Part shown: positions 43,694 to 55,692 of the stretch, one piece after another | How the letters are laid out: each line of letters starts with the position of its first letter | How positions within the stretch are numbered: the first letter of the stretch is position 1 | Source: an uncultured Streptococcus sp. | GTDB taxonomy: Bacteria > Bacillota > Bacilli > Lactobacillales > Streptococcaceae | Reading direction: 5' to 3' | Assembly: GCA_945864085.1 (NCBI GenBank) | Contig: CAMBAD010000001.1 | Coordinates: 25,472-89,471 of the forward strand | Length of the DNA stretch: 64,000 nt | The notes under the pieces: model-generated | Databases searched by the model: none | Told to the model about the DNA's origin: nothing | Seen by the model: only the letters and a program-made list of their open reading frames with translations | Made by a program: the position numbers and the translations under genes

Positions 43694-46600
43694 TTATCCA
43701 AAAGATTTATCTATCAACTCCTGCATCTTGCCTTCCTTAGCATAAGGAACAGTATCCACTTGCAGGAAATTCTTCCGACTAATAGTGTCTGGTAGGGTGC
43801 CAAAGATAAACTCTAAAGCAATCTTATGGATAATAGCAGTTGGTGCAAATCCATAGACCTGCTTTTCCAAGATATGTTTCAGACGTTCATTTCCATCAGG
43901 ATAGGCTACTTGTAAACCTTGGCTATTATAGAGTCGTTTAACCAACTCAGTGATATACAAGCCTGACTTCATATAGAGGTCGATAAAGGTTTTTGTGGGG
44001 TCATCAAAGATGCCAGGATTTTCTTTTTCCAACTCATCCACCATCTTCCGAACCACCTTCTTCGGAGTGTAGATCTGATTGGTTTTCTGAGGGGGAATAT
44101 AGTCAAAGATGTCCTCAGCCAAATCTTCAAAATAATTTGCCAGCTCTGCTTTTTTTCTTAAAAATTCTTGGACTGCCTGATCAAAGGTCGGCTGGTCAAA
44201 GAGATGACCAGCAAATTCAGGACCACCATCACGCAAGTAACGAAATTGGTCGAGATGAATACCAGTCACTTCATGAAAGACTTCATCCGGCACATAGGTA
44301 TCAAAGTTGCTCAAGGTCAGCTTCTCATCACCATAAGCCATGATGAAACTTGGAATAGTACGAGCAAAGCCACGCAAATGCCCACGAATCTCATCCTCAG
44401 CCTGGGCCTTAGTACGCTCCAACTGCTTAACTTCCTGTTGTTTGACCAGATCATGAGGCAAGTCCTGCACCTTTTCAGCCAAACGCTGGCGCAATTCTGC
44501 CTGATGGGCTTCATGAGCTTCTACCTTCTTAACTTGATAAGCTTGCTCCAGAACTGCTTTTTGTAAGTCGTCTGTTGATTCCTTCAAGGCTTCTTGGAAC
44601 TCCTGATCCAAGTGAGCTTGTTGGATATCAAACTCTTTTTCACTCCACTGGATCACTTCTTCAATTTCTGAATGAATCTGTTTCTCCAATTGTTTGCTCT
44701 CACGGTTACTTAAGCCATACCCAGCAGTTAATTCTTCCACCAAGGTAGAAGATACTTCTCTCTGTACCGTTCTAACAAAGGTCTTATCAACTGATTCAAG
44801 CTGATCAACCATCTCTTCCACAGTATCTAACAAGTCATAGACTTTTGTCCCAAATAGGACTTCCTGACGGTTGATAACCAGCTCTTCGGCAACCTGTACC
44901 TGTCCTTCTTCATCCACTTCAATATCTGGTAATTTAAGTTTATCTGGAGTTTGGCTGATTTTCCCTTGTTGCTCAACAGGTAAGTCATCCAAAATTTTCA
45001 AGATCTGCTGACTTGCTCGGAAAATGCCAGCTATATTGTCAAAAAGGAAATTAGACATAAAGCCTCGTTTGATAACTTCTGCTGCTCGAATTTGGCTCGG
45101 AATTGTCATGACCGCCTGAGCATCAATTTCCACCATTTTTCCTTCGCAATCTTCTGCAATAACTGGGAAGAAATTGAGCAGATTGCGGATATTTTCCTCT
45201 CTGGTTTGGCTGGTTCCGGCACCACCCACTGTTGCCAGACTAAGGTTATTGGCAAAGTCGCTAAAGAGTGAGAGCGTGCGTTCAGGAGCAAAATCAAAGA
45301 CATAGGCACGTTCTTTGCGGTAGACCTTGTCCCCTTCTACCCAACTATATGGGTTCTGAGCACGAAAGGCGGCCTGCATGTAGAGGGCTGGCGATTGGAG
45401 ATTGCTCAACATCAGCACTGCTGTCCACTCTGGAATGGTCACACCAGTCGTTAACTGACCAACTGACAAGGTGATAGTATAATCGTTTTCTGCGATGGCC
45501 TTCCTAACCATATCCAATGACCTACCAACAGCCTCCTGATCCTCACTATCGCGTTGGCTGATTGAGCCTGCTGCTAGCACAATTTTATATCGGTCAAAGG
45601 TCGGGTGGTCTTCCAACAGGTTTTTCAGGGCCTTAGCAGAGGCAACACGGTCCAAGAGCCAAAAGCTGTGCTTGATTTCTCGGCGCAATTCTCTTGTTGA
45701 GAACGGGTATTTTTCATTGGAAGTCAGGGTATTCAACCACTCTTTTACTTCCTTTTCATGGATAAACTTACCCGATTCATTGGTGGCGAAAAATTCATTC
45801 AAATCAAAGGCGAAATCAACCGTTTCACTGCCAAAATCCGCCCCAGCACTGACCCTGTCCGTAACCATCTTGGACATCTGATAGGTAAACATGTTGAGCT
45901 GGGGAAGATTTTCATAGGGATTTTCTTCTTCAGAATTTATCGGCCAATTCTGCTTAGCAGCTTGTTCATCCGCATAGGACCAGTTATAAATCTGTTCCTC
46001 TGAAAACTTGCCTTTAGCTAAGGCTTTAAAAGGTGTTCCTGAAAGATGAAGGGTGAAGTTTCGCTTGATTTGGTTAAAAGCAATATCGGTTTTTAAAGTA
46101 TCAATTCCCTCATGAGCCTCGTCAATGACCAGCAAGTCCCACTGGGTCTGTCCTACCCACTGAAGTTTATCATAGGCACCACCAAAGTACTTGGATCCTT
46201 TGAGATCTTGCAGACTTAAAAAGGCAATTTCCTTAGCCTCTTCCTCAGTAAAGAGGAGCTTTTTGAAATCTTCCCGAGATAGAGTTGATCTGCCTCGAAG
46301 GGAATCTGACTCGGAAACAAACTTATAGGAGGTCACCCCTGCTATAAACTTATGGAAATCATCAAACCAAGAATTGGCGATAGCTGGACGATTGGTCACA
46401 ATCAGGACACGGTCACAATTGAGGCGTTTGACCAGGTCATAGGTTGCCAGGGTCTTTCCAAAGCGTGGCTTGGCATTCCAAAGAAACTCCCTCTTGCGAG
46501 CATCATGGTTAGAGGCTATATAGACCAAGGTCTGCTGGACAGCCTCTTCTTGTTCCTGTCTGAGCTGGTAGTCCGCCTGCTCCCCAGGCTGGTATCCTGA

Positions 46601-46954
46601 AACATCATGACGGACAAACCGGTCAAACAAATGGCTGGCCTTTTCAGGATGACCATTGAAATAGAACCATTCCGTCTTTGGACGGCGTTCAATGGCATGA
46701 AAGTTCAAAAACTGGTGAAAATCGTGGTCTTTAAAAGGCTTGCCCTTGTCTGGTTCTTCAATATACTTGGCCTCTTCTTGCCACAAAATAGACGGCTCAA
46801 TCCCCGCCGTATGGGTCTGCTCCTTAATCCTCTGCTCCACCTGACGCTCCGTATAGCCAATCTTGACCCAGCCCTCATTGGTGGTCACATGGGGCGTGGA
46901 ATAGGCGTAGATTTTCGGAGAAATCTCTTCTGAAGTTTTAATCAAAACGGACAT
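43694..46954 (-). CDS. GIY-YIG (T5orf172-like) nuclease - SF2 DEAH helicase - partial DNA methylase-like domain protein (R-M type)
   Basis: N-term KIYAYSTPH...GWVKIGYTERQVEQRIKEQT; WNAKPRFGKTLATYDL (Walker A), LLVIDEAHEG (DEAH), LHLSGTPFKAL; C-term YTPKKVVRKMVDEL...FIDLYMKSGLYITELVKRLY...KQVYGFAPTAIIHKIALEFIFG. Confidence 0.85.
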   Translation of the reverse strand: MSVLIKTSEEISPKIYAYSTPHVTTNEGWVKIGYTERQVEQRIKEQTHTAGIEPSILWQEEAKYIEEPDKGKPFKDHDFHQFLNFHAIERRPKTEWFYFNGHPEKASHLFDRFVRHDVSGYQPGEQADYQLRQEQEEAVQQTLVYIASNHDARKREFLWNAKPRFGKTLATYDLVKRLNCDRVLIVTNRPAIANSWFDDFHKFIAGVTSYKFVSESDSLRGRSTLSREDFKKLLFTEEEAKEIAFLSLQDLKGSKYFGGAYDKLQWVGQTQWDLLVIDEAHEGIDTLKTDIAFNQIKRNFTLHLSGTPFKALAKGKFSEEQIYNWSYADEQAAKQNWPINSEEENPYENLPQLNMFTYQMSKMVTDRVSAGADFGSETVDFAFDLNEFFATNESGKFIHEKEVKEWLNTLTSNEKYPFSTRELRREIKHSFWLLDRVASAKALKNLLEDHPTFDRYKIVLAAGSISQRDSEDQEAVGRSLDMVRKAIAENDYTITLSVGQLTTGVTIPEWTAVLMLSNLQSPALYMQAAFRAQNPYSWVEGDKVYRKERAYVFDFAPERTLSLFSDFANNLSLATVGGAGTSQTREENIRNLLNFFPVIAEDCEGKMVEIDAQAVMTIPSQIRAAEVIKRGFMSNFLFDNIAGIFRASQQILKILDDLPVEQQGKISQTPDKLKLPDIEVDEEGQVQVAEELVINRQEVLFGTKVYDLLDTVEEMVDQLESVDKTFVRTVQREVSSTLVEELTAGYGLSNRESKQLEKQIHSEIEEVIQWSEKEFDIQQAHLDQEFQEALKESTDDLQKAVLEQAYQVKKVEAHEAHQAELRQRLAEKVQDLPHDLVKQQEVKQLERTKAQAEDEIRGHLRGFARTIPSFIMAYGDEKLTLSNFDTYVPDEVFHEVTGIHLDQFRYLRDGGPEFAGHLFDQPTFDQAVQEFLRKKAELANYFEDLAEDIFDYIPPQKTNQIYTPKKVVRKMVDELEKENPGIFDDPTKTFIDLYMKSGLYITELVKRLYNSQGLQVAYPDGNERLKHILEKQVYGFAPTAIIHKIALEFIFGTLPDTISRKNFLQVDTVPYAKEGKMQELIDKSFG

Positions 46955-47022
46955 CGATTACCTGCTTCCCTTTTTATGTATTTTCCAACTTCTCTTCACT
47001 ATTTTGCACCTTGTCAAAATGT

Positions 47023-48915
47023 TTAGTCCATTGGTCTAATGTTGGTTTCAAAGAAATCAATAACTTCTTGCGGAAAGTTAAATAAAGCATAGAGCTGTGC
47101 GTCAATCTCCGCCACCGACTGGGACCAGTCGATGACTGAGCTTGACGCAAAATCAAACAATGGTACATATTGCCAAGTTGAGGGAGGATTGTGTTGGGTG
47201 ATTTTTTTTATTCCCAAAAAACCTCTAGCAAAGTGAGTTTTAATATATTTCAGACAGGCCTCGGCCTCTTCTTTAGTTTGGAACTGACCAATAGATACAA
47301 ACGTTTGGGAATACCCGATTAGGGGTTCCCCGATTAGGGGTGTACTTAACACTTCTCCTAAAGCACCGCTACCATTTGATTCTGGTACAAGTATTTTATA
47401 GAACCTAAGATTTGGATGTTCTTTTAAGTAGGTGCTTTTTATATATTTTACTGTTCGATTGTTTTTGATTCTTCCGTATATTTGACAATACTCTTCATTT
47501 GAATCTGGTCTTTCATCAAAAAATACTTCTGGATACCGTTCAAAAATCATAGACGATACAGCTTTCCTATGTGATTCATCAGTTCTTGAGAGTAACTCAG
47601 GATGCTCTTCAAACATGACATCTGTTAGCTTATGACTATCTGCACCGTACATAATTTGATCCAAGGTTTGATTCAAATAACCAGATTTTTTTACAATTCG
47701 ATAGGCTAAATCTAGAAGTGGAGATGAGATGAAGGTATCAATCGGTTCAAAAAAACTAGTATTATCATGGTAGGTAATTACAACACCACCTTTAATATCC
47801 GTTCCTGGAAATACATTTCCACTTTTCAACTCATAAAAACAAATTTTCAAATGCTCATCTTCAAGCATTTTCTTATTCCATTTTTTAGGAGTTGCTCCTG
47901 TATTTGCTAAAAATCGAGCTGGTGTGATAAGAACAGCTTTATCTCCAATTTTGTACGATTCTTCCATGAATAAATTATAAATTGGTCTGGCTTGGGTATT
48001 TGCTCCTTCAATTTCCTCCTGATACGGTGGGTTTCCAATAACAACATCAAATTTCATAGGGGTTTCTCCTTTTGATAGACGCTCAAAATCTATCAATTCA
48101 TTTGTTTTCCAATCTTTGATTTGTGCTTTTTGTGACTGGCTTGGCTGTTCTGCTATTTCCTCAAAAAGACTAAGTTGAACAGTATCCCCGGCTTGCTGGG
48201 AGTAGGGGCTGGTGTAGGTCAGACCGTCCATCTGCAGGACATTGTAGGAAATAATCCGAGCGATGGTCATTTTCTGGCTCGAACTTGGTTCCTGGGTAAA
48301 TTTGGCTTGATAACAGTCAATAAAGCTAGCAAAGAGATTTTCACGCGCCAAGAGGAGGGAATCTCCCTGAAACTCGTAGCCATAAGAGTTCTGGTAGGCA
48401 GTCACTGCGCCTTGGAACCAGGCTTTTTCTTCATGGACTTCCTGGGAAAGGCGTTGGAGCTTGCGGTCCAAAAAGCCGACCCGCTCTTCTAGGGCTAAGG
48501 CTTGTCCCGTCACGGTATCGTAGCGTGAGACCATGTAGGGCGCTTCTCCACAGGTGATTTCCAACCATTTGAGCTGGAGGTAGGCTTCTAAGTCAAGGTC
48601 TTGATACTCTTGGTCAACAGTATCCACCTGCTTTTTGACTAACCAAGTTGGAGTGAAAACTTCAGCTCGCACTTTAGTCCTATCTTTTTGTTCATACTTG
48701 GACTTTTCAGAGCGTGGTTGTATCAGATTGGCATAGTCTCCTGTTACTCGACTAGGCGTGATTCTGTCATGAGCCCCGAACCCTTTTCCCAGTAACTCAT
48801 AAGAATGGGTCGCCCAAACGATGGACTTGTTGGTCGTTCTATCTTTTAAGAGTGTCCTAAGAAGACCAGAGGACTCTCTCGCTAATGTTTCTTCGCTAAT
48901 ATCTATGGTCGTCAT
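47023..48915 (-). CDS. Eco57I-like adenine-N6 DNA methylase / specificity protein
   Basis: RAEVFTPTWLVKKQVD, WLEITCGEAPYMVSRYD, catalytic motif FDVVIGNPPYQEE, KAVLITPARFLANTG; C-terminal putative target recognition region. Confidence 0.88.
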   Translation of the reverse strand: MTTIDISEETLARESSGLLRTLLKDRTTNKSIVWATHSYELLGKGFGAHDRITPSRVTGDYANLIQPRSEKSKYEQKDRTKVRAEVFTPTWLVKKQVDTVDQEYQDLDLEAYLQLKWLEITCGEAPYMVSRYDTVTGQALALEERVGFLDRKLQRLSQEVHEEKAWFQGAVTAYQNSYGYEFQGDSLLLARENLFASFIDCYQAKFTQEPSSSQKMTIARIISYNVLQMDGLTYTSPYSQQAGDTVQLSLFEEIAEQPSQSQKAQIKDWKTNELIDFERLSKGETPMKFDVVIGNPPYQEEIEGANTQARPIYNLFMEESYKIGDKAVLITPARFLANTGATPKKWNKKMLEDEHLKICFYELKSGNVFPGTDIKGGVVITYHDNTSFFEPIDTFISSPLLDLAYRIVKKSGYLNQTLDQIMYGADSHKLTDVMFEEHPELLSRTDESHRKAVSSMIFERYPEVFFDERPDSNEEYCQIYGRIKNNRTVKYIKSTYLKEHPNLRFYKILVPESNGSGALGEVLSTPLIGEPLIGYSQTFVSIGQFQTKEEAEACLKYIKTHFARGFLGIKKITQHNPPSTWQYVPLFDFASSSVIDWSQSVAEIDAQLYALFNFPQEVIDFFETNIRPMD

Positions 48916-49143
48916 AGTTCACCTTTTCACATTATTTACTTATTATTATATCATTTCTTTACTGGGTAGAAAATTGTTTCTAGATAAAATATGATGAAAT
49001 ACGAAAGTATCCATTTTTTCAATGAATTCCTTTTTTGATACTATATATTGTGTTTTGTTTGTTTTTTTATGCTATAAAACACAAAATACAGTGTTTAGAT
49101 ATTGACTTATTTAATTATGTAGGCTATACTAAAAACATGGAAA

Positions 49144-49171
49144 AAGATTGTAGACGGCCATCTACAATCTT
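49144..49171. promoter_or_regulatory. Perfect stem-loop in leader of 49314 gene
   Basis: aaagattgtaga-cggcca-tctacaatcttt, 12-bp perfect arms. Confidence 0.75.
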
Positions 49172-49313
49172 TCACGCAATGAACGAATCAGAGTCTTTCG
49201 AACTGACACTATTCTCAAATTTCTATTAAAACTATAACAGTTTCTATTTAGATTGTAAAGTAAGACTCCTTCATTCATTGTTTCCAAATAATTATAATAA
49301 AGGAGCTTTGCCA

Positions 49314-50246
49314 TTGAGTAATGGAAAATTGACAGAAAAAAAACACAACGAACTTGACTTTGTGAATATATCTTGCAATCGAGATTATAAACTATTTTTG
49401 GACCCGACAAAGTTATATTCACAGCATCTACATCCTATTTTTAAGGATGGCGTCCAGAAACTTCATTCATTTTTGTTAGAAGTTTATCGAGTATATACGG
49501 AAGAAGGAGAAAGTGAAGTTCGGAAATTACTACGTTACTCTTCCGAATGCAATCTAATACACCTAGGTTACTCTTCAAAAGATTCAAAGGGAACTGGGGC
49601 TTCTGAGGAAATGTTGTTTGATTTTTTTAAAAAAATCATTGAGTTTGGAACCAAAGAACGCGAAATTTTGCTACATCCTGCCTCAATCGCAATTTTTGTA
49701 CCAAAATTCGCAGAAGATAGGACATCAGACCTTCTTGTAAGTATTTTGAAAAAAGAGATTGTAGAATACACCTTAGAGCAAGCCACTATTCACAATTTCG
49801 ATATTGAAGAAACAGAGTACAACTTCGGCTACTATTGGGATTTTGAGTCACTTAGTTGGAAGAGAAGCAAAAACTATTATGTAGCTTCTGAACAAGGAAA
49901 GCCCATCTTATTAGTACCAAAGTGTCTTGTCTCACAAAAATATAAATTCTCCACTGCAGATTTTGTCAAAAAGATAATATTCCCCATCAAAAAGGAGTCA
50001 GAGCGATACCAAGGTATAAATGGATTTTACAAAAATGGCGCCCCAAAACCTGCTACCCAGAAACAACTTATTGATGGTGAAATACGCTCTCCATATAGCA
50101 ATCGCTCCAATAAATGGAAGACCTATGCCATGGACCAACTAATGAAAAATCATAATTGGTATTCTGAGTATTTCCAAAATATGAACGAGTTCGCCGACAA
50201 TCATATCATTCCAGATGAGGTACTGGATAGGATTACAAATAGCTAA
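49314..50246 (+). CDS. Uncharacterised protein (defence-island associated candidate)
   Basis: Open frame with RBS aaggag 8 nt before TTG; LDFVNISCNRDYKLFLDP..., FVPKFAEDRTSDLLV, YYWDFESLSW, PILLVPKCLVSQKY. Confidence 0.8.
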   Translation: MSNGKLTEKKHNELDFVNISCNRDYKLFLDPTKLYSQHLHPIFKDGVQKLHSFLLEVYRVYTEEGESEVRKLLRYSSECNLIHLGYSSKDSKGTGASEEMLFDFFKKIIEFGTKEREILLHPASIAIFVPKFAEDRTSDLLVSILKKEIVEYTLEQATIHNFDIEETEYNFGYYWDFESLSWKRSKNYYVASEQGKPILLVPKCLVSQKYKFSTADFVKKIIFPIKKESERYQGINGFYKNGAPKPATQKQLIDGEIRSPYSNRSNKWKTYAMDQLMKNHNWYSEYFQNMNEFADNHIIPDEVLDRITNS

Positions 50247-50270
50247 ATCTCACCAACAAAAGAATAGTGT

Positions 50271-50299
50271 CTACCTCTCATTGTGGGAGGTTTTTGTTT
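50271..50299 (+). terminator. Terminator after 49314 gene
   Basis: acctctcattgtgggaggtttttgtttt. Confidence 0.6.
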
Positions 50300-50738
50300 T
50301 CTCCAGAATTCAAGAGCAACTTCTTATGCATACTATCTCTTTTTCAAAAATCTTGGTCGATTTTCATGCAAAAGAAACAATCGAGATTTATTTCTAATCA
50401 GTTGGAACCTTAAACAATTCATCAATCCAGAAATATACCAGTTACTATCATTATATTCTTCTTTTCTATTTTAGCTTCAGAAGTATTGACCCGTAGCGAC
50501 ACCCTGACAACTCAAATTTATGTCAATACTTTAAATATCATTTCGACAGAAGTGGAGAATTTTCTTAAAGTCTATAAAACAATAGATAAATTTTCAATCA
50601 AAATCAGCAAAATCGAACCAGAAGATACCAAAGTTTACCTTATTCTCGATTCTAGAAAATGGGGTAAATTAATGTATTCACTTTTAATTTTTGTATATAT
50701 CATGTATAATGTATTTACAAATACAGGAGGTATATCCA

Positions 50739-50960
50739 ATGAATGTTTTATTACGCAAAACAGGTAATAGCACTGTTATCACTATCCCAAACGCTATTAA
50801 AGAAGCGCTTGGTGCAGAAATTGGTGAAGAAATCGAATTCGTCATTTCTGGAAGTAATGTCATCATCCGTAAAGCTGAGCCAACATTTGACTTTGACAAA
50901 GAGTTAGAAAAAGCTATGAACCAATACGATGAATTATTGAAAGAGTTGGTAGATAAATGA
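50739..50960 (+). CDS. AbrB/MazE/SpoVT-type antitoxin
   Basis: MNVLLRKTGNSTVITIPNAIKEALGAEIGEEIEFVISGSNVIIRKAE; RBS aggaggt; overlaps the Fic/Doc gene by 4 bp. Confidence 0.9.
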   Translation: MNVLLRKTGNSTVITIPNAIKEALGAEIGEEIEFVISGSNVIIRKAEPTFDFDKELEKAMNQYDELLKELVDK

Positions 50961-51364
50961 AATACCTATCCGCTGAAGCCATTATCAAAATCAATGTCAT
51001 GGTTATTGGAAAATATTCCCCAAAGGAGCCCGTTGGGATAGCTGATCCAAACAGCCTGCAGAGGATTGTTGAGCAGCCAAAACAAGAGATTTTTGGAAAG
51101 ATACTCTATCCCGACATTTATAGCAAAACAGCCATTATCTGGATCAATCTAATTAAGAAACACCCATTCAAGAACGCCAACAAGCGAACTGCAGTGCTTG
51201 CTTTACATATGTTTCTAGCAATGAATGGTCTTCAGTCAAATCTCTCATTAAGCGATGGACTGGAAAAGACAATCGAGATTGCTACGTTTCAAGGTGACTT
51301 CGAGGAATTAAAAGATAGGATTATCCAGTTTTTGAAAGAAGAAAATCGAGTATACAAAAAATAG
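50957..51364 (+). CDS. Fic/Doc family toxin
   Basis: FIC-type motif HPFKNANKRTA; Doc-sized (135 aa); antitoxin-coupled. Confidence 0.9.
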   Translation: MKYLSAEAIIKINVMVIGKYSPKEPVGIADPNSLQRIVEQPKQEIFGKILYPDIYSKTAIIWINLIKKHPFKNANKRTAVLALHMFLAMNGLQSNLSLSDGLEKTIEIATFQGDFEELKDRIIQFLKEENRVYKK

Positions 51365-51753: not shown

Positions 51754-51842
51754 GTTGATATAATCGCTGATAATTAACGTTTTGAGAATTTCACTATTGA
51801 AAACGAAGAATTCTCACCCCTTACAAATCCCGCTATATCAAC
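51754..51842. repeat. Nested inverted repeats
   Basis: Outer gttgatata...tatatcaac, inner gagaatt...aattctc. Confidence 0.65.
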
Positions 51843-52067
51843 ATTTACGAAAATGAAACTTCCATGAAAATGGACTAAAATCCACTGATTGGGATAAAAT
51901 TGACACCAATTAACACCATAAAATAGACTAGTCATCAGTAGGTCAAACTAATTTGACCTACTTTTTCTTATAGATGGATAATTTATTAATCAAATTCAAA
52001 ATGATAGGTCAAGCATTTTATAAATTTATCGGTATAAGAAGACAAAAAAGTCCCTAATCAATACGAG

Positions 52068-52688
52068 TTATTCTTCAAGAAAAAATCTTTTCAAAATTAT
52101 TTCTCTTTTAGGAAGTTTGACTTGTTGCTGATTATCTCCATATAAAGTATTATATAACTCGATACAAGCTGTATATATGGACTGAATTTCTATCACTTCA
52201 AAATAATAGTATAGAATACCAATGTCTAATCTTTCTGTTGAAAAGACCATCTCTTTATCTAAGTGAGCCAAGAGTTTATCGCGAAGCAATTTGATTTCAT
52301 CGATATTTTTTTGTTCTTTATCAATACCCTCTTGAATGGTACTCAAAATTGATAAAAGAGATCTATCTTTGGTACTATGTCTCAATTTGGATAGAATCTT
52401 AAAAATACCATTTTTTTCTCTGCTATCAAAAATTTTAGTTATACCGAAGACAACTCTATAAAATAAAGATTCATATGTTACATTTCGTACTATATCATAT
52501 CTAATAGATGATTGCACTACTCTATCATGCCACTCATCGTTTACAATTTTTACTATTTCAAGTGCAGCAATTATTGATCCAAGTTCAAGTATCATAGTAT
52601 GAAAATGAATCATTATTTTAGAGTCATCATCTGGTAATTCATCAGCGAAATTCTTTCCTACAAAATCTTTTAAATCATAATCATTCAT
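52068..52688 (-). CDS. Small protein with HEPN/AbiU2-like motif
   Basis: 206 aa; EIKLLRDKLLAHLDKE matches the HEPN Rx4-6H pattern; downstream of the NACHT gene on the same strand. Confidence 0.65.
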   Translation of the reverse strand: MNDYDLKDFVGKNFADELPDDDSKIMIHFHTMILELGSIIAALEIVKIVNDEWHDRVVQSSIRYDIVRNVTYESLFYRVVFGITKIFDSREKNGIFKILSKLRHSTKDRSLLSILSTIQEGIDKEQKNIDEIKLLRDKLLAHLDKEMVFSTERLDIGILYYYFEVIEIQSIYTACIELYNTLYGDNQQQVKLPKREIILKRFFLEE

Positions 52689-52827
52689 AAGCTAACACCT
52701 ATTTAATAAATCTTCTTACTTTTACTCAAATTGATAGTTCATTCTGCTTCAAAAATATTTTAGAGATTACAATTTCTTTAGTCACCATGATCACTCAAAT
52801 TAGACTCACTTTATAAACACTAATCTA

Positions 52828-55692
52828 CTAAAATTTTCCGAAAATCTCCTCTAAACTGTTCTTTATCTCTTTATGGACATAATCACTTAATGGAGTATTT
52901 TTACTAATATTTCTTGAGAATAAAAGATTTGAGAAAGCACTCTCATGAGTAGAAATATTTTTAGGAACTCTATTTAACAAATTGTAACTTTGTATTATTT
53001 CATCATATGCTCCTTCATAATTCCTAAACGAATCACTATGAGATACTTCAACTAAATTTTTATCTCCTGAATATGCTACGTGATAATATCCTATCCACGG
53101 ATTACTTTCATCATCTTTGTAAGTGATAAGTAATTTGTACGGCATATCTTGAAACTTTGAAAAATATCTATAAATTTTAGGAAAGTTATATTTCACCATT
53201 TCCAGATAACTCACTTCAGCGAAATTAAAAAATGTTTCAACTATTTCTATTTTTCTTTTCGTAGAATATAAGCTCATTGTTAAGCCATTTGATTCTGAAT
53301 ATTCTCTATCACGACCAGGTATGATCGAACTCCTATAATCCACACCAGAGTGTAGTAAAATAGATAACAATTTATTTAAACTAAACAACTCTACTCCTTC
53401 CGATGTTGTATAGCTTAAAACTTCCGGACAATCTTCAAGGGCTTCATCTATCCTTTTTCTAACCTCTTTACTCATCAAAGAGATTTCATCAATATCTTTA
53501 AGCCAAGATAACCTATCTATGGTTTCTTTTAAAAGTTCACATAAAATATAGTTACTTGCTGGTAATGATTGTTTTTCTAATATATCTTTCAAATTGCTTT
53601 TAATAAGCTCTACTGCAATTTTTCGCCCACTATCCCCTATAAATCCTGATAACTCCAAGTTTGTAATATGCTGAACCATTCGAGTGGTTTTTGAAAAAAT
53701 AGTGGTCTGATACTCTTGACTCGCTTGACTCAGCAGGTTGGAGCTGACAATTTTCACATCTGGTACTTCTTTATCCACTATATCAAACCAATAATAGAGA
53801 CTATTTTCTACAATACTTCCAGTAAGCCCGATTTTCGATTCCATTTGATTTTCTGTTATAAATGGTTCAAATTGTTCTGTGATAGGATGAAAGTAATTGC
53901 CAACAATAAATGTGTAAGTTTTATGGATTTCCGATAAAATTCGTCCTATATTATCCTCCATGGAAAGATCTGTTATTCCATTATTTCTCAACAAATCATT
54001 TTTAGAGTTAATACATTCAATATAAAGAGGTAAGTTATGTTGTAGAACATAATCTAAAAATTTATCCTGCTCATCAATAGTTGAAAATAATCCTGAGATA
54101 AAAATAACTACCTCTCGCCATTCTTCATTATGGATTAATTTTTCAAGAAGTTCTGTATCTGATGAAACTGTTAGGTTATTCGTAATATAGTATGCCGCAC
54201 AAAACTCCTTAAATAGCTTATGAGAAAAACTAATTCTATCTGAAGTACTAAAAATTCCAAAATTTATAAAATAATCAATTATATTTCTTTTATTTGGTGT
54301 AGAAACTGGATAAGCACTTATTATTTTATCTACTTCACTGTATGTAAAACTAGACCGTTCAAAATGCTCGTAAGAAAATTTGCCAAAAAGATTTAATGTT
54401 TCATGTAGGGATAATTCTGAATAACTATTTTTGTAGCGATAATTATTTTCAAAATACTCTGTAAAAATTTGGGTTCTATTGAACAACTCCTTATTTTGTC
54501 TATTAGCCAGAACAGTTTTACCAATCTTATAAAACAAAGGGTTTCTAAACAATTCAAGATATGCTTTAGGAAGATTACTATACCATCCAAGTCTAATTAA
54601 ATCACTTTGAATCATACCATCAGTAAGATTCGTTAGAAAGAAATTCTTTTCTTCCCCAAGCTCATTCTTATAACGATTATTTCGTGTGGTAAAAAAGAAA
54701 AAATTTTGTTTATATTGTGTCATTAATTGATTGACTTCAGAAAAAAATTTCAATCTCTTTCTCTCATCAATAATATCATCAATACCATCGAAGAACAGTG
54801 CTAATTGATTATTAGCGAATAGCTGATTAATAGCCTCTTTAGAATTTCCTTCACAAAAAGGCTCCATTTTCGATTGAATAATCTCGAATAATGTTCCTAA
54901 ACCGTCCACGTACTCCACTAACGGAACATATACAGGAATTAATTGATAATTAGAATATTTTGCACATAACTGATTTATCAGTTTAAAGATTTCAAATGTT
55001 TTTCCAAATCCAGCTTCTCCTTTCAATACAACTTTACGGTATTGTAAAAGGGTATCTAACGAATCTTTTTCCTTACTAACTTCGGTATCTTGAAATAAAC
55101 TACGTTCAAAATAGTTGGACTGATCAAATGAATCACCTAATGTTGTTAACAAGGTTTCAATATAAGAACGTATTCTAAAATTACCATCTACAACCTGTTT
55201 TAACATCACATTATTATCATCTACAATAGACGTTATGTGCTGCAACTGCCTGTCTATTCCATCGATAATCTCTCTAATAGTCCGACACAGTGCCTGCGAT
55301 TCAGGAGTCCCTATTTTATTGAGTTGTCTAAATATAATTTCAAAATATTTTTGAAGAATTTGTTTTATTTTACTATTATATAATTTATATTTAGGATATT
55401 TTTCAATAAACAAATTAATATAAAAATCTACTGATTGATTTATTGTTTTTGATTGTAGAATATCCTGATTAAGAAAATTTTTAATAATTTTGTTTAGCAC
55501 ATCCTGTTCAATCAAAAATTGATCAAAATCAAGATAATATATTTCATTTCCATATTGTTGTAATACTGAATATTCAATTTCATTCTTTAGCCTTTTTGTA
55601 AACCACTTTAGTCGCATTTTTCCAAAGATACCTCTAAAGTAATTTCCAAGCTCCTCTATCAATAAATTTTCAATTAATGAAATAGTAAGCAT
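52828..55692 (-). CDS. NACHT-type STAND NTPase
   Basis: 954 aa; Walker A VVLKGEAGFGKTFEIFKL, Walker B LALFFDGIDDI, sensor FFFFTTRNNRY, FSHKLFKEFCAAYYI motif typical of NACHT winged-helix region. Confidence 0.85.
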   Translation of the reverse strand: MLTISLIENLLIEELGNYFRGIFGKMRLKWFTKRLKNEIEYSVLQQYGNEIYYLDFDQFLIEQDVLNKIIKNFLNQDILQSKTINQSVDFYINLFIEKYPKYKLYNSKIKQILQKYFEIIFRQLNKIGTPESQALCRTIREIIDGIDRQLQHITSIVDDNNVMLKQVVDGNFRIRSYIETLLTTLGDSFDQSNYFERSLFQDTEVSKEKDSLDTLLQYRKVVLKGEAGFGKTFEIFKLINQLCAKYSNYQLIPVYVPLVEYVDGLGTLFEIIQSKMEPFCEGNSKEAINQLFANNQLALFFDGIDDIIDERKRLKFFSEVNQLMTQYKQNFFFFTTRNNRYKNELGEEKNFFLTNLTDGMIQSDLIRLGWYSNLPKAYLELFRNPLFYKIGKTVLANRQNKELFNRTQIFTEYFENNYRYKNSYSELSLHETLNLFGKFSYEHFERSSFTYSEVDKIISAYPVSTPNKRNIIDYFINFGIFSTSDRISFSHKLFKEFCAAYYITNNLTVSSDTELLEKLIHNEEWREVVIFISGLFSTIDEQDKFLDYVLQHNLPLYIECINSKNDLLRNNGITDLSMEDNIGRILSEIHKTYTFIVGNYFHPITEQFEPFITENQMESKIGLTGSIVENSLYYWFDIVDKEVPDVKIVSSNLLSQASQEYQTTIFSKTTRMVQHITNLELSGFIGDSGRKIAVELIKSNLKDILEKQSLPASNYILCELLKETIDRLSWLKDIDEISLMSKEVRKRIDEALEDCPEVLSYTTSEGVELFSLNKLLSILLHSGVDYRSSIIPGRDREYSESNGLTMSLYSTKRKIEIVETFFNFAEVSYLEMVKYNFPKIYRYFSKFQDMPYKLLITYKDDESNPWIGYYHVAYSGDKNLVEVSHSDSFRNYEGAYDEIIQSYNLLNRVPKNISTHESAFSNLLFSRNISKNTPLSDYVHKEIKNSLEEIFGKF

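Follow-up and report, generated by a model that had tools for sequence, protein, structure and literature searches.

The NACHT-type STAND NTPase gene and the HEPN_AbiU2 family gene that lie side by side in the window (the whole stretch of 64,000 nucleotides that was analysed) probably represent two linked defence genes and not a single, fixed machine of two parts. With moderate confidence, we favour a reading in which the NTPase is a self-contained STAND immune switch and the HEPN protein acts in abortive infection independently or as an accessory, not as an obligatory effector. This reading of the NTPase is suggested by relatives that live without the HEPN gene, by constraint on the N-terminal domain, by swapped effectors within the family, and by defence-gene neighbourhoods. 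Both open reading frames were confirmed at the exact coordinates of the initial annotation, co-directional and 139 bp apart (Table 1). On the minus strand, the NTPase gene (55692 to 52828), whose upstream neighbour is lacX, is followed after the gap by the HEPN gene (52688 to 52068). No terminator-like site was found in the gap, and no Rfam family in the NACHT-HEPN region.

Table 1. Features of the NACHT-HEPN region, in window coordinates.
Feature	Position	Strand	Basis
NACHT-type STAND NTPase gene, 954 aa	52828..55692	(-)	Family profile against NLRC4; relatives pass the Pfam NACHT cut-off
NTPase residues 1-205, N-terminal domain, predicted all-helical, effector position	55078..55692	(-)	Position equals that of the trypsin/HSDR_N domains of relatives; low-confidence model
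Walker A GEAGFGKT, NTPase residues 225-232	54997..55020	(-)	G228, G230, K231 invariant in 8 relatives
Walker B LALFFDGIDDI, NTPase residues 297-307	54772..54804	(-)	D302, G303, D305 invariant in 8 relatives
Sensor-like FFFFTTRNNR, NTPase residues 331-340	54673..54702	(-)	T335, R337 invariant in 8 relatives
Winged-helix-type FSHKLFKEFCAAYYI, NTPase residues 489-503	54184..54228	(-)	Inside the NLRC4-matched span
NTPase residues ~540-954, C-terminal region, likely sensor	52831..54075	(-)	Common to relatives with different N-termini
Intergenic stretch NTPase/HEPN, 139 bp	52689..52827	(-)	E. cecorum and G223 retain a similar stretch
HEPN_AbiU2 family gene, 206 aa	52068..52688	(-)	Pfam match; alignment of ten family members
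RDKLLAH, candidate HEPN catalytic motif (R136, H142)	52263..52283	(-)	Invariant in alignment
att-like element, ~160 nt, contains AATTCTCAAAACGTTAA (rpsI gene end)	51771..51934	(-)	Marks the distal end of the cargo module
Segment absent from HEPN-only alleles G852, G907, G021 (same lac locus)	52772..55687	(-)	Locus comparison

The four motifs that the initial annotation had read in the NTPase (GEAGFGKT, LALFFDGIDDI, FFFFTTRNNR, and FSHKLFKEFCAAYYI) are all present, and the motif residues are invariant across eight relatives in the alignment. Against Pfam NACHT the window NTPase alone reaches 19.5 bits, below the cut-off of 26.7, although relatives with swapped N-termini (L005, L020, L021, and L065) pass it with 32-42 bits. 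A profile built from the eight relatives matches NLRC4 (E 2.2e-10) at profile positions 196-538 (343 positions), a span that covers the NACHT, helical, and winged-helix regions. The Walker A and Walker B motifs, the sensor arginine, and the winged-helix motif lie in one NACHT-HD-WHD unit, the arrangement that marks the NACHT clade. The 954-aa protein is accordingly classified as a NACHT clade member of the STAND NTPases, as had been proposed. The AlphaFold model from four sequences (pLDDT 37) is too poor for a fold search. Pfam searches returned no match in the C-terminal region and no DNA-binding domain at either end, and the protein has no match in PADLOC-DB of 2023, which is not in itself proof of novelty. 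Weak family matches to CENPU, Duo1, and IES5 were dropped as chance helical similarity, and four weak profile matches in other genomes (L056, L057, L060, and L064) were set aside because inspection of the sequences identified them as McrB-type or other P-loop proteins. Phage and viral collections held no relatives of the NTPase or the HEPN protein apart from one weak partial NACHT match, and a plasmid search gave one distant NACHT relative and zero HEPN relatives.

Distant relatives of the NTPase share its NACHT core and the whole C-terminal region, and differ in the N-terminus. L005, from a Lysinibacillus plasmid, and L020 have an N-terminal trypsin-like domain, and the MBL gene upstream of each matches PADLOC Avs1a (E 1e-90 and 3e-89). 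An HSDR_N_2-like nuclease domain occupies the N-terminus of L021 (E 2e-4, below the threshold) and of L065 (E 1e-6, above it). No HEPN gene adjoins these distant relatives. Since relatives swap the N-terminus for a trypsin-like protease or an HSDR_N-like nuclease, residues 1-205 most likely represent, by their position, an effector slot of no recognised family. Furthermore, since an N-terminal effector is built into such relatives, an effector in trans appears to be unnecessary for the NTPase family. Residues 1-205 are all helices in the low-confidence model, gave no Pfam family at E up to 10 beyond chance-looking matches, and had no PADLOC match. This domain is confined to a streptococcal, lactococcal, and enterococcal branch; a search with it alone, covering plasmids and 255 genomes of the phylum, found it in the window genome only. 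The C-terminal region of ~415 aa is likely the sensor, since it stays constant while the N-termini are swapped, which fits well with the sensor role suggested earlier for the ~400-aa C-terminus. L023, a shorter NACHT protein with weaker family membership and likewise without a HEPN gene close by, lies directly after an alpha/beta-hydrolase gene and is possibly another effector swap, split over two genes; the hydrolase gene, which has a PADLOC LmuA match, overlaps the NACHT gene (L023:4860-7891).

The 206-aa protein had been described as an AbiU2-like HEPN protein with an Rx4-6H motif, and this description held. It matches Pfam HEPN_AbiU2 with 40.9 bits (cut-off 26.8, E 2.1e-10), the spacing in RDKLLAH is Rx5H, and R136, K138, A141, H142, and D144 are invariant in ten family sequences with identity down to 17-26%. 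It is classified as a HEPN_AbiU2 member and a predicted ribonuclease. The AlphaFold model, from two aligned sequences, is a low-confidence all-helical bundle (pLDDT 61, pTM 0.60), with which a PDB fold search returned mostly designed or other helical bundles and nothing at E <0.15. A dN/dS of about 0.19 against relatives of 71% identity points to purifying selection. No match to the protein was found in PADLOC-DB of 2023, and three other AbiU2-family members in the class (L025-L027) have no NACHT neighbour within the short flanks examined.

Relatives of the NTPase were collected by genome scan and tblastn, and 290 Streptococcus genomes, one per species, were searched at the DNA level and their loci compared. 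The NTPase gene was found in 5/290 genomes, the HEPN gene in 8/290, and both in 2/290, where chance alone would give about 0.14 genomes with both. The pair is present in the window and in G847, 97% identical and directly behind lacX of the same lac locus in both, and a third copy is present in Enterococcus cecorum (NTPase 96%, HEPN 94% identical). The gap between the genes is unchanged in the three genomes, and the DNA identity of 96-97% over the common block places all copies in one lineage. Thus the pair does recur outside the window, as the initial annotation had asked, but within one lineage only, where an obligate two-gene NACHT-HEPN system would be expected to co-occur across lineages, and each gene is also found on its own. 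Overall, the association is real but reflects one linked lineage.

At least three diverged lineages have the NTPase gene without HEPN, and at least three have the HEPN gene without the NTPase. NTPases without HEPN are those of S. mitis bv. 2 SK95 (81%), G927 (81%), Lactococcus raffinolactis (80%), and G828 (62-65%), and among the 290 Streptococcus genomes the NTPase-only ones are G871, G927, and G828. These unpaired NTPases are intact or uninterrupted as far as the contigs reach. SK95 and G927 have zero HEPN matches genome-wide in the DNA search, and absence in Lactococcus and G828 was judged on short contig ends; the G828 relative is split over two contigs, and the 650 bp that follow its stop codon hold no HEPN gene. 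Comparison of paired with unpaired NTPases gives a dN/dS of 0.16-0.23, and residues 61-120 show 87% identity with a dN/dS of 0.10-0.13. Therefore, constraint acts on the N-terminal domain with or without HEPN.

The HEPN gene without the NTPase lies behind lacX in G852, where it is intact, and in G907 and G021, where it has one frameshift each; elsewhere it is found in G223 and, at 71% identity, beside another gene in G032 and G975. The frame is intact in G223, G032, and G975 as well. In G852, G907, and G021 the lac side leads into the ribosome-binding site and initial codons (ATGCTT) of the NTPase, which are joined to the NTPase-HEPN intergenic stretch at the same deletion junction. This allele is best read as an ancestral pair from which the NTPase was deleted. 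G223 (L019:9462-9725) has a different, in-frame NTPase deletion that joins residues 1-50 to 917-953 in an 87-codon frame and leaves HEPN intact. The frameshifts in 2/3 lac-locus copies may point to a lower value of HEPN once the NTPase is gone, although the copies are few and sequencing error is possible. In G032 and G975, a gene of 449-493 aa in which no family was found lies ~320 bp upstream of the 71% HEPN relative (L048:10772-12121, L049:10161-11642), and it is possible that this gene is an alternative HEPN partner.

In the initial annotation the HEPN protein was proposed as the effector of the NTPase. In such a two-gene abortive-infection system, the NTPase would sense infection and switch on the HEPN ribonuclease, so that RNA is degraded and the cell halted, and NTPase-only relatives would have lost HEPN or would use another effector. 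The co-directional genes with a short, terminator-free gap kept unchanged in window, G847, and E. cecorum, and the frameshifted HEPN of 2/3 alleles without the NTPase, as expected if HEPN brings little benefit on its own, favour this scheme and count against a self-contained NTPase. Purifying selection acts on both genes, and bacterial STAND NTPases with N-terminally fused HEPN domains have been described (PMC3710099). However, NTPases of 80-81% identity lack HEPN and retain the same N-terminus, HEPN is intact without the NTPase in four genomes, two of which have it beside the unrelated 449-493-aa gene, relatives have built-in effectors, and all pair copies represent one lineage. The effector role is thus unsupported as stated, and the two-gene system, although possible, seems rather unlikely. 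It also counts against the self-contained NTPase that residues 1-205 have no recognised fold or family and are labelled as effector by position only. A doubtful extension is that these residues form a novel class of effector or recruiting domain coupled to NACHT, and that the window lineage additionally gained HEPN in trans; if so, a single sensor would drive two killing mechanisms.

The region of the E. cecorum copy contains conjugation-type genes. A pair of 162-nt direct repeats, 80% identical to each other, flanks the copy, and the right-hand repeat matches the att-like element just behind HEPN in the window. In G927, whose NTPase has no HEPN beside it, the same att-like sequence follows the NTPase after ~180 bp and AATTCTCAAAACGTTAA is the 3' end of rpsI, and a 74-nt repeat in G223 connects the end of rpsI with the far side of HEPN. 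Therefore, with or without HEPN, the NTPase is cargo that adjoins the end of rpsI-integrated elements, and the right-hand flank stays the same whether or not HEPN lies between it and the NTPase. The module is read as cargo at the end of an rpsI-type mobile element; it was later moved beside the lac operon and carried the scar along. Instances of the ~160-nt non-coding element, with its rpsI-end sequence, lie at 51771-51934 of the window, L004:7756-7917, L004:11757-11918, and L068:3001-3163. The defence cargo units that end in it are a methylase-like gene and NACHT-HEPN in E. cecorum, NACHT in G927, and, on an E. faecium plasmid, a methyltransferase/helicase pair. It has the look of an att scar at which cargo can accumulate.

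Other defence-type genes cluster beside the pair at 43694-51364 of the window. These are restriction-modification genes of ResIII-type helicase/endonuclease and Eco57I-type methylase (43694-48915), the PADLOC candidate PDC-M36A (49278-50246), and a MazE-like/Doc toxin-antitoxin module (50691-51364). The L. raffinolactis NTPase (L003:298-3388) is adjoined by DolA/DolB (Dodola-type) and AbiJ-like genes, and restriction genes lie beside the G828 NTPase.

That the NTPase serves as a STAND regulator (of transcription or of its mobile element, for instance) and not in defence is improbable. STAND proteins such as MalT, as mentioned in PMC10427625, control transcription, the NTPase gene resides in mobile elements, and its defence role is deduced here from sequence. 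However, neither NTPase end has a DNA-binding domain, the effector position of relatives is taken by a trypsin domain, accompanied by an Avs1a-type MBL gene, or by an HSDR_N-like nuclease, and known defence genes repeatedly adjoin the NTPase. A toxin-antitoxin-like pair, in which the NTPase would restrain a toxic HEPN and free it upon infection, is very improbable: HEPN toxins with regulatory partners are known in general (HEPN-MNT, PMC4621449), but HEPN frames outlast two different NTPase deletions, which argues against the NTPase as antitoxin, one deletion leaves HEPN directly after what was the ribosome-binding site of the NTPase, and lactococcal AbiU2 expressed in E. coli gave no growth inhibition (PMC3985639).

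With the self-contained NTPase preferred, its mode of action can be potentially described as follows. The conserved C-terminal ~415 aa would detect a phage product or a phage-caused disturbance, upon which the NACHT core would exchange nucleotide and presumably oligomerise. The N-terminal 205-aa helical domain, once clustered, may be activated or may recruit a host factor, and the activated domain would stop the infected cell. The HEPN_AbiU2 protein, a putative RNase, would have joined the NTPase gene once, as neighbouring mobile-element cargo. The sequence data show the identities of the genes, their conserved motifs, the swapped N-termini, that the two genes can be separated, and the mobile-element setting. 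Phage sensing, oligomerisation, the effector role of residues 1-205, and RNase activity are inferred here from the families, namely the bNACHT layout (PMC12169576) and the HEPN RNases (PMC3710099).

The PADLOC copy of 2023 has no entry for this NACHT branch, in which no effector is recognisable. In its relatives, the same NACHT and C-terminus occur with at least two further kinds of effector (a protease with MBL, and a nuclease), a natural swap experiment for C-terminal sensing. Loci with the pair, with a single gene, and with an exact one-gene deletion at the same site make the question of partner or neighbour directly testable.

Like the anti-phage bNACHT proteins (PMC12169576), the window NTPase has an N-terminal effector position, a central NACHT, and a C-terminal sensor region, a three-part architecture in which the effector and sensor roles are putative. 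Among these proteins, bNACHT25 of clade 6 has an N-terminal PD-(D/E)XK nuclease, and clade 14 has a SNaCT C-terminus and no discernible effector (PMC12169576). The window NTPase resembles clade 14 in being without a recognisable effector; it differs from bNACHT proteins in a C-terminus without a Pfam match and a predicted helical N-terminus that matches no family.

In AVAST type 1, Avs1a is an MBL nuclease and Avs1b a trypsin-STAND protein (PMC12799240), and in L005 and L020 a trypsin-NACHT protein likewise comes after an Avs1a-like MBL gene. For AVAST and Hachiman, proteolytic activation was demonstrated as the mode of action of the MBL nuclease-protease pair (PMC12799240). However, the relatives match the 1924-aa Avs1b profile over the trypsin part only, and the window NTPase is without a trypsin match, an upstream MBL gene, or a PADLOC Avs match. 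As in AbiU2 of the lactococcal AbiU system, the window HEPN has the R/H motif, and it exceeds the Pfam HEPN_AbiU2 cut-off; unlike that system, its partner is a NACHT NTPase, and neither protein matches PADLOC. The HEPN-STAND fusions (PMC3710099) bring the same two kinds of domain together, whereas in the window these are encoded by two separate, separable genes, with HEPN after, not before, the NTPase.
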